Assembly: GCF_000316625.1 (NCBI RefSeq)
Contig: NC_019676.1
Span: 4,544,501 to 4,608,500 of the forward strand
Origin: Nostoc sp. PCC 7107
GTDB taxonomy: Bacteria > Cyanobacteriota > Cyanobacteriia > Cyanobacteriales > Nostocaceae
Length of the DNA: 64,000 nucleotides
Reading direction: 5' to 3'
Positions 2,626 to 22,563 of this stretch are shown one piece after another. The translations under genes and the position numbers were made by a program. The notes under the pieces were generated by a model. That model saw only the letters and a list, made by a program, of their open reading frames with translations, was not told where the DNA came from and did no database searches. The number at the start of each line of letters is the position of its first letter. The stretch's first letter is position 1.

Positions 2626-3231
2626 TTATGTGAATGCAGATGCGATCGCATCTGTAATTTTTTGATGCCCTACATTTCTTGTATGAAGTGCTGAGTTTGT
2701 ACTAGCTTCAGCAATAATTGTGAACAGTGCAGGAGAATCTGAATGAGCTTTTGTTAAATAGAGCAAAGCTTTGATTAAATGATCATCTGAATTTTTCTGC
2801 TCAAGCTCTTTGAGTACATCATAATTATTTCTGGCAGCTAGAGCTAATTGGTGATATTCAGTGATGGGCGTGAGGAATCTGAGAATATTTTCGGTGACAC
2901 TCCCAACTATATCAGTGGATTCAAAAGCGATCGCATGACCATGACTCATTTCATCTAAAGCTTTCACCTGTGCATGATCAGCGGCTGCATTTGCTGCGGC
3001 AGACAAAACCTTACTGAGGTTAGGATTTGTGTTTGTAGCATTGACTAAAAATCCTAAGCATTTACAGTAAAAATCTCTTAGATGACTGGCGGAAGTTTTT
3101 TTTGCTTCCTGCACATTACCATTTTTATATTGTTCTAATGCCTGACACTGCCATTCATTACTCGGTTCACTCAGAACCTCAAAAATTACATTTATTGCGA
3201 TTTGGACGTTGGGTGTAGTAGTGGTAGTCAT
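2626..3231 (-). CDS. Unknown alpha-helical cyanobacterial protein
   Basis: 201 residues, no recognised family. It opens with a run of threonines (MTTTTTPNVQ) and is otherwise predicted helical and soluble, with no signal peptide or membrane segment. Two cysteines form a CKC motif (about residues 56-58). Histidines recur in the second half (DHAQVK, SHGHAIAF, RNVGHQK). The ATG at 3231 is the only plausible start. It sits just upstream of the pterin dehydratase on the same strand and about 100 bases downstream of the terminator of the structured RNA at 3333-3628. If that terminator is conditional, this gene and the dehydratase would be its targets. Confidence 0.7.
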   Translation of the reverse strand: MTTTTTPNVQIAINVIFEVLSEPSNEWQCQALEQYKNGNVQEAKKTSASHLRDFYCKCLGFLVNATNTNPNLSKVLSAAANAAADHAQVKALDEMSHGHAIAFESTDIVGSVTENILRFLTPITEYHQLALAARNNYDVLKELEQKNSDDHLIKALLYLTKAHSDSPALFTIIAEASTNSALHTRNVGHQKITDAIASAFT

Positions 3232-3332: not shown

Positions 3333-3383
3333 ATAAAAAACTATCCGCTCTGATTTAGGTCTGTTGACCTAATATCAGAGCGG
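3333..3383 (-). terminator. Strong rho-independent terminator ending the structured RNA
   Basis: On the minus strand a long hairpin (arms at 3345-3361 and about 3366-3383, outer arms CCGCTCTGA and TCAGAGCGG, about 17 bp with one mismatch and a 4-base loop) is followed by six T at 3340-3335. The length and quality of the stem indicate a real transcript end coming from the right. Confidence 0.85.
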
Positions 3384-3484
3384 TCTAGCGGGTCTTCAGG
3401 TTGCAACCAGACTGCCGGGAGGAACTCCCAGGCTTGCCTAGTCAATTGAGATAACTTAAGTTTCTCAACTAACTAAAGCTAACT

Positions 3485-3556
3485 TTAGAGAACAGCCCCG
3501 GCGCACAGCCGGCTAACTGCAACCTGACGACCCATGCGTTTACTACTTTCTATCAT
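3485..3556 (-). CDS. 23-residue ORF with consensus Shine-Dalgarno inside the structured RNA
   Basis: On the minus strand the sequence AAGGAGGTGAT (3571-3561) is a full-length match to the 16S anti-Shine-Dalgarno. The ATG at 3556 sits 8 bases after AGGAGG; a second ATG at 3562 is too close to be used. The product starts MIESSKRMGRQVA and ends LCAGAVL, basic then hydrophobic. Codons for GRQVA form one arm of the 16-bp RNA helix, so a translating ribosome would open that helix. This arrangement is typical of regulatory leader peptides, but no run of one amino acid is present to name an effector. It is too short for homology by eye. Confidence 0.5.
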   Translation of the reverse strand: MIESSKRMGRQVAVSRLCAGAVL

Positions 3557-3671
3557 GGGCATCACCTCCTTGTTGCCTAAACGGACTTAGTTTCAATAAG
3601 GCAGAGTAATCACTCTGGGCTTTAACCTGGAATCAATATAACACATTAATTTTAGAAAGATATACGCCATA

Positions 3672-3751: not shown

Positions 3752-4810
3752 TTAGAGAGCGTTACCACGAGGCAATACCTCCTCAGGGAATATAAATTGT
3801 TCGTGAGGCTGATCTTGAGGAGCCATCCAAGCGCGGATACCCTCGTTCAGCAAAATGTTTTTGGTATAGAAAGTTTCAAATTCTGGATCTTCGGCTGCCC
3901 GCAATTCTTGGGAGACGAAGTCATAAGCCCGCAGGTTGAGAGCTAAACCGACAATGCCAACCGCACTCATCCACAAACCTGTGACTGGTACAAACAACAT
4001 GAAGAAGTGCAACCAGCGTTTGTTGGAGAAAGCAATCCCGAAAATCTGTGACCAGAATCGGTTTGCTGTCACCATTGAATAGGTTTCTTCTGATTGGGTG
4101 GGGTTGAAGGCGCGGAAGGTGTTAGCTGCTTCACCGTCTTCAAACAAGGTGTTTTCGACTGTGGCACCATGAATTGCACACAATAGCGCTCCACCAAGTA
4201 CACCTGCTACTCCCATCATGTGGAAGGGGTTGAGTGTCCAGTTGTGGAACCCTTGTAAGAACAACAAGAACCGGAAGATGGCAGCAACACCAAAGCTGGG
4301 TGCAAAGAACCAAGACGATTGTCCCAAGGGGTACATCAGGAAGACGCTGACGAATACCGCGATTGGTGCTGAGAATGCTAAGGCGTTGTATGGACGGATG
4401 CCTACTAGTCGCGCAATTTCAAATTGCCGCAACATGAAGCCGATTAAGCCAAAGGCTCCGTGTAGTGCTACGAATGGCCATAATCCACCTAACTGAATCC
4501 AACGGGTGAAGTCCCCTTGCGCTTCTGGCCCCCACAACAGCAATAGGGAGTGTCCCATGCTGTCTGCTGGTGTTGATACTGCTACTGTCAGGAAGTTGCA
4601 GCCTTCGAGATAGGATGATGCTAATCCGTGGGTGTACCACGAGGTGACGAAGGTTGTACCGGTTAACCAACCGCCTAGTGCTAGGAAGGCGCAGGGGAAT
4701 AATAATATTCCTGACCAACCTACGAATACGAAGCGATCGCGCTTTAACCAGTCGTCTAGTACGTCAAACCACCCTCTTCTACTGGGGGCGCGTCCTACTG
4801 CGATGGTCAT
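3752..4810 (-). CDS. psbD: Photosystem II D2 protein
   Basis: 352 residues, full length. D2 forms the reaction-centre heterodimer with D1 in the thylakoid membrane and holds the primary quinone QA. All key residues are in place: Tyr160 (TyrD), His117 (peripheral chlorophyll), His197 (P680 ligand), and His214 and His268 (non-haem iron). The start [13 protein letters not shown] is the standard D2 N-terminus. psbC normally overlaps the end of the psbDC copy of psbD. Here a terminator follows instead, so this is the monocistronic psbD copy, which in cyanobacteria is usually the high-light-induced one; that last point is family knowledge. Confidence 0.98.
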
Positions 4811-19455: not shown

Positions 19456-22400
19456 ATTGCAATTCAAACTAATCCCTATTAGGGATTGAAACAGAATTTA
19501 AATCGCCGCTACCATTAGCAAAAGATTGCAATTCAAACTAATCCCTATTAGGGATTGAAACATGCAGAAGTAGGAAACAGAATTGTTTTACCTAATAAAT
19601 TGCAATTCAAACTAATCCCTATTAGGGATTGAAACTATTAACAGTAATAATATTAAAACTAGTTTTAGCATTGCAATTCAAACTAATCCCTATTAGGGAT
19701 TGAAACTTACTAACGCTGGCTCAAGTATTTGTTTGAGCCTTTGATATTGCAATTCAAACTAATCCCTATTAGGGATTGAAACCTCAACCTTGATTTGCAC
19801 TAAAGCACCCCATCTTTCTATTGCAATTCAAACTAATCCCTATTAGGGATTGAAACGTAGCAGCCCAACAAGGATTGAAGCAAACAAAACAAATTACATT
19901 GCAATTCAAACTAATCCCTATTAGGGATTGAAACGAGGGCAAAGTCACCAAACCGAACGGTGGTGAAAATTGCAATTCAAACTAATCCCTATTAGGGATT
20001 GAAACTTAAAGTCTCTACTGAAGCATACTTTTCTGGCGTAAAAATTGCAATTCAAACTAATCCCTATTAGGGATTGAAACAGCAAAGCCTTTCCCAGCTA
20101 ACTTGCATCAAATTAGATTGCAATTCAAACTAATCCCTATTAGGGATTGAAACTTGGAACATCGCCGTATTAAACCCAACCCAGCTAATTGCAATTCAAA
20201 CTAATCCCTATTAGGGATTGAAACTGTTGCAGAGATGAATAACAAATTCTCTGCCAGATTGCAATTCAAACTAATCCCTATTAGGGATTGAAACTATGCC
20301 CTTTGAGGATTTCATTTTTTTCATCAATAACTAATTGCAATTCAAACTAATCCCTATTAGGGATTGAAACATCGGATCTACTTATCAGCAAAAGCAGCAA
20401 AATAAATTGCAATTCAAACTAATCCCTATTAGGGATTGAAACTGTTGGTTTAGCTGCGGTGTAGCCTCCGCGGTCGCCAATTGCAATTCAAACTAATCCC
20501 TATTAGGGATTGAAACATAGATGCAAGGCCTATCAGGAGGCTAACTCTAGTAGAATTGCAATTCAAACTAATCCCTATTAGGGATTGAAACTTCGGATAG
20601 CACAGCATTGCAGTTCATAAGTACCAAATTGCAATTCAAACTAATCCCTATTAGGGATTGAAACTGCTGCATCGCTGGGCATTGTATTTATAATAAACTT
20701 ATTGCAATTCAAACTAATCCCTATTAGGGATTGAAACTACCAGTACATGAGCGTCCCCGGTGGATTGAGAAAATTGCAATTCAAACTAATCCCTATTAGG
20801 GATTGAAACGAGAATATCGACCATTGCCCGACCAGTCAAAATGATTGCAATTCAAACTAATCCCTATTAGGGATTGAAACTTTCCTGAGCCGCACCTAAG
20901 CGGCTTTTTATTTGATATTGCAATTCAAACTAATCCCTATTAGGGATTGAAACGCTTACCTGTAAAAGTAAAATATTTAGGACAAGCATTGCAATTCAAA
21001 CTAATCCCTATTAGGGATTGAAACTACCGTAAACAATATACCATAGCGTGCAACACAAATTGCAATTCAAACTAATCCCTATTAGGGATTGAAACTTTTC
21101 ACCTTGAAAATAAGACACTTTTGCAGCATATTGCAATTCAAACTAATCCCTATTAGGGATTGAAACATCTCCAGTTTGCCAGCCCTTACGTCCAATTAAC
21201 CATTGCAATTCAAACTAATCCCTATTAGGGATTGAAACAGATACTATCATATCTAACTCTTTAGACGTTAAGATTGCAATTCAAACTAATCCCTATTAGG
21301 GATTGAAACGGTTAGTTTCAGCATCTTCCTTGCTTACTAAGTCATTGCAATTCAAACTAATCCCTATTAGGGATTGAAACAATTACGGATACGAGCGTAT
21401 TCGCAAATTAGAGAATTGCAATTCAAACTAATCCCTATTAGGGATTGAAACATTGACCAAGCAAACAGGCGATCGCCACCTCAATATATTGCAATTCAAA
21501 CTAATCCCTATTAGGGATTGAAACTAGTCATTTGTTTGTAGTTTGCAAGTATTTTGATAGTGATTGCAATTCAAACTAATCCCTATTAGGGATTGAAACG
21601 AGGCTGGTTGTGCTGGAGAAAGTAAACTTGTCCAGTTATTGCAATTCAAACTAATCCCTATTAGGGATTGAAACATTTCATATTTAGTAATGCCTCCAGT
21701 ATCTACTCTATTGCAATTCAAACTAATCCCTATTAGGGATTGAAACTTGATTTGCGATCGCATTCACAAGTGGCCTGCATATTGCAATTCAAACTAATCC
21801 CTATTAGGGATTGAAACAAATTTATAATCTTCATAGGCTTTGAGAGCTTTAATCGTTATTGCAATTCAAACTAATCCCTATTAGGGATTGAAACCTCAAT
21901 TTCTGCTTGTCTTTTGACAGACAAGCCTGATTGCAATTCAAACTAATCCCTATTAGGGATTGAAACAGCTATAAATATCGCGTATGACATAGACGCTGAA
22001 ATTGCAATTCAAACTAATCCCTATTAGGGATTGAAACATAAACAGGTACTTATAAAGCTTTCCGATGATTAAAATTGCAATTCAAACTAATCCCTATTAG
22101 GGATTGAAACTCTTTGAAGTACAAGACACTAAAGGAGGTTTTTTCTAAGATTGCAATTCAAACTAATCCCTATTAGGGATTGAAACAAAAATTAATATCG
22201 TATCTAAATATTCGTTTTGTGGTAGGTAATTGCAATTCAAACTAATCCCTATTAGGGATTGAAACACGCATGGGAATCATGCCATCGGGGAATAGTTCTA
22301 AGATTGCAATTCAAACTAATCCCTATTAGGGATTGAAACAATGCGAATTATGAAGACTATCACGAACTCAGACATTGCAATTCAAACTAATCCCTATTAG

Positions 22401-22563
22401 GGATTGAAACTTTCTAATGATGAATTTTCTAAATTGCGTAAACACATTAAATTGCAATTCAAACTAATCCCTATTAGGGATTGAAACCGGTATATACAGT
22501 GTCGCCAACCTTGCATTGAAACTGGTATTGCAATTCAAACTAATCCCTATTAGGGATTCAATA
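19456..22563 (+). CRISPR. CRISPR array, 43 repeats of 37 bases and 42 spacers
   Basis: The repeat starts ATTGCAATTCAAACTAATCC and ends TATTAGGGATTGAAAC. I placed 43 copies by hand: the first at 19456-19492, the last at 22527-22563. The last is degenerate at its 3' end (ATTCAATA in place of ATTGAAAC), which marks the trailer and sets the direction as plus. Spacers are 32-42 bases, mostly 34-38. AATCCC/GGGATT within the repeat forms a stem. Neither flank has a cas gene (acyltransferase left, FAD monooxygenase right), so the array must use Cas proteins encoded elsewhere. Repeats ending GGGATTGAAAC in cyanobacteria go with type I-D or type III systems, which I cannot separate here. Confidence 0.99.

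Follow-up and report, generated by a model that had tools for sequence, protein, structure and literature searches.

A minus-strand RNA encoded beside the photosystem gene psbD of Nostoc sp. PCC 7107, at about 3628-3335 of the window (the whole 64,000-nucleotide stretch of DNA analysed here), belongs to a family of RNA genes whose reality we regard as practically certain. The reading that we favour, with a probability of roughly one half, is that it is a stand-alone RNA whose fold gates the loading of ribosomes on a tiny open reading frame (ORF) and that its family is an old one, shared by Cyanobacteria and Chloroflexota. The family itself, the covariation of its helices, the kept reading frame and the Shine-Dalgarno (SD) site are direct results of the computations described below.

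Results

The RNA gene and its surroundings

On the minus strand of this part of the 6.33 Mb host chromosome the order is psbD (3752-4810, TIGR01152 match), its own terminator-like site (3701-3678), the RNA, ORF201 (2626-3231) and pcd, a pterin-carbinolamine dehydratase gene (2313-2594), so that the RNA lies 3' of psbD. ORF201 is without a Pfam or NCBIfam match and was found by tblastn in 3 of 57 loci, its own included, many of these loci being short. Elsewhere in the window, a CRISPR array at 19456-22487 (CRISPR-DR5, RF01318) accounts for 42 of the 43 Rfam matches, and the remaining match is a tRNA.

The original prediction described a structured minus-strand RNA, and its description agrees with the sequence nearly throughout (Table 1). 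The RNA has a minimum free energy (MFE) of -120.6 kcal/mol, compared with -83.1 (sd 4.9) in 200 shuffles, none of which equalled it (z -7.6). The predicted 16-bp helix (3533-3518/3405-3390) is present, although the MFE structure shows it as 15 pairs with one interruption, and codons 9-23 of the short ORF do make up the 5' arm of the long helix, as had been proposed. Also confirmed were the consensus SD, with a gap of 8 nt from GGAGG to the ATG at 3556, and a strong terminator (3388-3335) about 100 nt before the downstream gene, the ATG of ORF201 being at 3231.

A simple sigma-70 scan gave no promoter at the RNA. Six aligned relatives retain the TATATT at 3640-3635, one of them with a single base changed, and this conservation fits a transcription start near 3628. 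The terminator scan listed psbD's terminator alone and did not report that of the RNA, whose stem carries a conserved internal loop. In the alignment described below this terminator helix (helix 5) is paired in 97.1% of cells, and the arm GCGGATRG-T is found in 172 of the 181 cyanobacterial loci having enough sequence. Judged from such sequence features, it is highly probable that the RNA is a stand-alone transcript with its own predicted promoter and terminator, the transcript ends being those that we infer. Within the terminator (3341-3388, minus strand) the GA/A internal loop and the bases CTAGACCGC/GCGGATAG are almost invariant, which would seem to exceed the apparent need of a plain terminator; its 5' arm resembles an upstream element, AGACCGCTTAGG, of relatives.

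Table 1. Features of the RNA and its putative promoter, with positions in the window.
Feature	Positions	Strand	Basis or remark
Putative -10 element TATATT	3635..3640	-	Alignment of relatives
5' hairpin CAGAGT/ACTCTG	3601..3620	-	Sequence, alignments, MFE; varies among families
5' element CCGTTTAGG (CCGnnnAGG)	3576..3584	-	Pattern counts against expectation
SD AGGAGGTGAT	3561..3570	-	Sequence; complement of the 16S tail (tail from L248/L249); kept in both phyla
Start segment CCCATG, able to pair with CATGGG at 3531-3536 (predicted masked state)	3554..3559	-	39 sequences folded with the 3' part and again without it
Short ORF, 23 codons + TAA, MIESSKRMGRQVAVSRLCAGAVL	3485..3556	-	183 distinct related ORFs
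Long helix, 5' arm, lower, GGGTC..CAGGTTGCA, from codon 9	3518..3533	-	Pairs with 3390-3405; helix 2
Long helix, 5' arm, upper, GCC GGCT..GCCGGGG..CTC, to codon 23	3488..3513	-	Helices 3 and 4
Long helix, 3' arm, upper, GAG..TCCCGGC AGTC.GGT	3406..3427	-	Helix alignment
Long helix, 3' arm, lower, TGCAACCTG..GACCC	3390..3405	-	Alignment; in the folding model, within the start-releasing 3' sequence
Terminator CTA.GA.CCGCTCTGAT ... ATCAGAGCGG.A.TAG TTTTTT, conserved GA/A internal loop	3335..3388	-	Helix 5; arm count

Conservation and covariation in Cyanobacteria

By blastn the RNA is present in 57 of the 60 genomes of the host's order, its own included. An alignment of 27 diverse members, chosen from 40 non-redundant sequences with the divergent L052, L054 and L057 dropped, contains five helices in which 98.0% of cells are paired, whereas slid-structure controls pair in 31-49% of cells. 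Changes on both sides occur in 21 of the 46 pairs, a number that 0 of 500 shuffles reached; the lower part of the long helix (helix 2) has them in 9 of its 11 pairs, and helices 3 and 4 are paired in more than 99% of cells. Covariation of helices in homologues was one of the checks that the original prediction had named, and the RNA passed it.

Of 292 genomes sampled from the phylum, a covariance model built on the cyanobacterial RNA (R1) matched 104, once in each; 20 of the 188 misses were listed, and these comprise 4 genomes of the same family, 3 of the same order and 13 of the same class. Another model, the third, matched 74 of 121 genomes of a small-genome family that we infer to be picocyanobacterium-like, as a single copy in 73 of the 74. 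This type measures about 154-179 nt from SD to terminator and has the ORF M..SC..QGLLIAENAG, and its ORF and helix meet at codon 9, as they do in the host RNA. The RNA gene is usually single-copy. A mobile origin was rejected on finding no match in phages or plasmids and no occurrence of the pattern in viral contigs.

One locus of the cyanobacterial phylum that lies outside the class, L212, carries AGGAGGTGATGCCTATG and a 23-codon hydrophobic ORF at 1500-1600. It is matched by R1 and by the model R2 described below, and is possibly a relic or a homologue; the hydrophobic peptide of this doubtful locus is unlike the other peptides inspected.

Relatives in Chloroflexota

A pattern scan of species genomes returned at least 117 stretches; of the 80 matches listed, 75 carry cyanobacterial names and 5 belong to Chloroflexota. 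Since the strict pattern found only the starting genome among 301 Chloroflexota genomes, the case for that phylum rests on a relaxed pattern and on a second model, R2, built from 16 sequences. The relaxed pattern matched 16 of 249 Anaerolineae, with none in the reversed control among the matches listed. R2 matched 168 of the 249 (11 of them twice) and, with weaker scores, 46 of 120 Chloroflexia at E <= 0.01. An SD, a start and an ORF of 14-21 codons were located by script in 15 of the 16 Anaerolineae and 25 of the 30 Chloroflexia loci inspected, and the Chloroflexota hairpin shows both-side changes in 8 of 12 pairs, as did 1 of 500 shuffles.

The models also find each other's sequences. R1 matched 21 of the 22 Chloroflexota loci given to it (L236 was missed) as well as L212, at a worst E of 0.0019; R2 missed three of 14 cyanobacterial loci (L206, L208 and L221) and matched the other 11, 9 with E <= 0.001, along with 9 of 9 Chloroflexia loci. 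Common descent of the cyanobacterial and Chloroflexota RNAs is strongly suggested by these matches, in which much of the cross-phylum score comes from the initiation region, the helices not being aligned between the phyla. New here are the shorter relatives in the small-genome family, in Anaerolineae and, more weakly, in Chloroflexia. In several Anaerolineae loci tRNA clusters stand at least about 600 nt from the RNA (L236:2252-2967, L242:2240-3012).

The short ORF

Among 183 distinct related ORFs, 168 have 23 codons and the remainder 17, 18, 24 or 25, the 18-codon ORF (L158) being of the Chloroflexota type; they stop at TAA (114), TAG (67) or TGA (2). The 168 distinct ORFs that are cyanobacterial encode 23-25 amino acids in 164 cases, stop at TAA, TAG and TGA in 102, 64 and 2, and all start with ATG, which the pattern required. 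Because the set of 183 had required an SD and a start, the openness of these frames cannot count as independent evidence. The exchange of one stop codon for another and the whole-codon changes in length can, and they bear out the expectation that homologues would keep the frame. The exception is L051, outside that set, which has a -1 shift in the ORF and comes from a genome that is 86% complete.

In 135 of the 136 distinct cyanobacterial ORFs of 23 codons, codon 3 encodes D or E. Variation within codons 16-23 is concentrated at third positions (0.55 vs 0.23-0.24 bits), and codons 2-15 show no third-position excess. The amino-acid entropy of the ORF, 0.973, is below that of all 300 column permutations (mean 1.044), a small gap obtained with a permutation that ignores relatedness. 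Codons 9-23 are constrained in addition because they are also a helix arm. The Chloroflexota peptides, of 14-21 amino acids, have little in common past an MxDSS(T)K(R)-like start; across the phyla the initiation region is kept and the peptide mostly is not. That the ORF is translated is, on the sequence evidence, quite probable.

The ribosome site

The 6.33 Mb genome contains 13 copies of the 10-nt SD AGGAGGTGAT and 3 of its reversed form, which served as a control. An ATG stands 2-7 nt behind it at only two of the 13 sites, in the RNA and before a 42-codon ORF; one further site has a TTG start with a 26-codon frame, and the rest are two 16S-tail complements, six copies of one repeat and two sites without such a start. 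An SD of this kind before a start is nearly unique in its own genome. The 42-codon ORF, MNTYKFHDEYTLAETADQLGKK..., follows the second AGGAGGTGAT with ATG at L256:1500, which is C1:4825317-4825326 on the minus strand of the same genome.

GGAGG begins 13 nt before the start in 39/41, 18/19, 23/30 and 26/27 loci of the four groups, with one and three further loci in which no site was found. In 23-codon cyanobacterial ORFs the hairpin that includes the ORF body starts at +25, and 16 Chloroflexota loci place it within +21 to +26 (folding from +19); folding from +16 puts its median onset at 22 in Anaerolineae and 21 in Chloroflexia, all quartiles lying within 17-23. This onset, about 17-26 nt past the start codon, coincides roughly with the edge of an initiating ribosome's footprint. 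The constant spacing and hairpin onset thus suggest that the constant part of the RNA is approximately what an initiating ribosome covers.

Upstream of the SD, CCGnnnAGG occurs in 128 of 168 cyanobacterial sequences (0.22 expected) and 16 of 24 Chloroflexia sequences (0.09 expected), in sets that had been selected for GGAGGTGATG-like sites. It was found in 0 of 31 Anaerolineae, 28 of which have an ATCC- or ATCAT-type element instead.

Predicted masking and release of the start site

All 17 Chloroflexota loci examined contain a segment complementary to the SD, a near copy of the 16S tail that mostly lies within the ORF (past the stop in L230). Its pairing with the SD (-18 to -23 kcal/mol) is about equal to that of the SD with the 16S tail (-19.6). 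No both-side changes were seen in this pairing, which therefore rests on complementarity. For cyanobacteria we rejected a universal anti-SD (0 of 50 loci below p 0.05, median p 0.73); by eye, the 3' loop UUCCUYCC had resembled one. The small-genome type has an anti-SD in 1 of 6. Since cyanobacteria are without an anti-SD, masking there would fall on the start codon, through the short hairpin CCCAUG/CAUGGG, whose sequence is tied to both the start codon and the long helix, so that covariation cannot test the masking.

Release was computed by equilibrium folding only. In 39 cyanobacterial sequences the predicted openness of the AUG is 0.43 in the full RNA, 0.05 in the truncated RNA and 0.06 with a shuffled 3' part; with the native 3' part the start becomes more open in 30 and less open in 3. 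The corresponding values for the Chloroflexota SD are 0.47, 0.17 and 0.14, with an increase in 15 of 16. Release is predicted in 30 of 31 Anaerolineae and only weakly in Chloroflexia, where 10 of 24 go up and none goes down. Among 15 sequences of the small-genome type the effect is absent (openness of the AUG 0.32 in the full RNA, 0.33 when truncated and 0.35 with a shuffled 3' part; 2 up, 6 down), and a universal release switch was accordingly rejected; the model predicts release in three of the four groups, weakly in one of these. That two lineages arrive at one predicted masking arrangement by different sequences speaks for selection, but the folding is at equilibrium, and release is to be expected of any hairpin that consumes the masking segment. 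We put a fold-gated start in cells at somewhat less than an even chance. The original prediction held that translation and folding exclude each other. This stands insofar as ribosomes must melt the helix, but in the folding model the completed helix exposes the start codon.

Comparison with known RNAs

Rfam 15 has no family above its gathering threshold at the RNA in the window, and in 20 related loci no match up to E 0.5 falls on the RNA. 6S RNA (RF00013) was rejected, the one match in the genome lying elsewhere (C1:3756460-3756642). The original statement that no named family fits therefore holds for Rfam; it does not hold for the literature, where ncl0160 fits (PMC4734099). In the available excerpts of that paper ncl0160 is an sRNA of Synechocystis 6803 and Nostoc 7120, reported in 2016 with no function given and first described by Mitschke 2011a, as cited there. 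It has 83 homologues and is widely conserved, the marine lineage having been excluded from the study; its ORF encodes 23-25 amino acids, starts mostly with ATG and in a few cases with GTG, always has a ribosome site, stops at TAA, TAG and TGA in 47, 34 and 2 of the 83, and is concluded by the authors to be likely translated (PMC4734099). The RNA described here resembles it as a conserved cyanobacterial sRNA with a ribosome site, an ORF of that length, the same order of stop codons (TAA > TAG >> TGA) and breadth outside the marine lineage. The differences are the GTG starts, which our ATG-requiring pattern did not yield among 168 ORFs, and Chloroflexota, of which those excerpts make no mention. 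Matched by described features and not by published sequence, the RNA is very probably the ncl0160 orthologue. Our literature search met the name ncl0160 in one paper and found no link of the RNA to Chloroflexota, and the available parts of PMC5126843 and PMC12475003 contained nothing on it.

Other systems share single traits. In aapA3, a Helicobacter type I toxin mRNA, metastable hairpins, one of them within the ORF, hide the SD and are proposed to act during transcription, avoiding premature translation (PMC6733600). For the present family, equilibrium folding predicts masking in cyanobacteria and Anaerolineae, weakly in Chloroflexia and not in the small-genome type; unlike aapA3, the finished fold is here predicted to open the site, the peptide looks polar, and the RNA is a conserved, usually single-copy gene. 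On inspection the peptide, with its polar start and not hydrophobic throughout, is not the small hydrophobic membrane peptide of a type I toxin. The dual-function RNAs RNAIII and SgrS/SgrT are likewise of regulatory size with a short ORF, whereas here most of the ORF is a helix arm (PMC2518516). The yfr6 or Downstream-peptide RNA is cyanobacterial, about 250 nt long and has a short ORF (PMC2864571, PMC2518516), but its peptide has 33 amino acids (PMC2518516) and the RNA here has no Rfam match. Yfr103, of 290-328 nt, has seven paralogues in strain CC9605 (PMC5069720); judged by copy number it is unlikely to be the small-genome form, which is single-copy in 73 of the 74 genomes that have it and spans about 154-179 nt from SD to terminator.

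Discussion

In the mechanism that we propose, transcription would start at the RNA gene's own promoter and end at its own terminator, giving an RNA with an unusually strong SD and an ORF of 14-25 codons, the body of which doubles as the 5' arm of a hairpin. In the nascent RNA an ORF-internal segment would pair back on the initiation site, masking the start codon in most cyanobacteria and the SD in Chloroflexota. The completed 3' arm would capture the masking segment and expose the site, so that ribosome loading would await the completed and released RNA. In translating the ORF, a ribosome would then melt the hairpin and free the masking segment again, which would limit reloading.

The RNA could instead be an attenuator or translation-coupled leader of the gene downstream, ORF201 or pcd, as the original prediction had suggested in part. 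Of 98 cyanobacterial loci, 79 have a same-strand ORF next and 5 have none, a pcd-like gene being the commonest neighbour (47 of the 98); in Chloroflexota the next ORF is on the same strand in 11 of 19 loci. It lies on the opposite strand in 14 of the 98 and 8 of the 19, however, by a simple ORF caller that is rough in G+C-rich loci; the downstream ORFs form 39 clusters, and the terminator arm is kept nearly everywhere. Such varied neighbours argue against a cis attenuator, no conserved same-strand regulated gene was found downstream with that caller, and we consider a leader very improbable. The RNA might also be simply the mRNA of a conserved micropeptide, with structure only tuning expression. 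The kept frame with its interchanging stops, the nearly constant acidic codon 3, the third-position variation of codons 16-23, the low amino-acid entropy and the opinion of the ncl0160 authors (PMC4734099) all speak for this; yet the Chloroflexota peptides are alike in little but their start, codons 16-23 are also a helix arm, in which tolerance of G-U pairs could yield the same pattern, and the entropy difference is small and comes from a permutation blind to relatedness. We regard this as rather unlikely, and as less probable still a dual-function sRNA, by analogy with SgrS/SgrT, that would pair in trans with mRNAs besides having a translated ORF. Invariant stretches outside the helices of this conserved RNA unit would suit such pairing, as would a conserved loop GUUCCU in the 3' arm of the cyanobacterial form, although by eye this loop is not common to the Chloroflexota or small-genome types.

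Within our preferred reading of a fold-gated, stand-alone RNA, the function that has been kept may be the contact with the ribosome and not the peptide, which we put forward tentatively and consider doubtful. To our knowledge few RNA genes are kept across phyla, and those belong mostly to the core machinery. A bolder view, which we likewise hold to be improbable at present, is that this is an ancient class of RNA engaging the small ribosomal subunit, a ribosome sensor or buffer and not the messenger of a particular peptide. The finished RNA would offer a start codon together with a sequence almost perfectly complementary to the 16S tail, with the hairpin held just outside the initiation footprint and the site masked again after each passage, and the class would either predate the split of the phyla or have been exchanged between them.

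The RNA is absent from Rfam and kept in two phyla, and the ribosome site is its most constant part. On a modest reading, ncl0160 is a member of a much wider family, for which a possible gating of the start site is suggested; if the engagement of ribosomes is true, the RNA would represent a new way of sensing or buffering translation.
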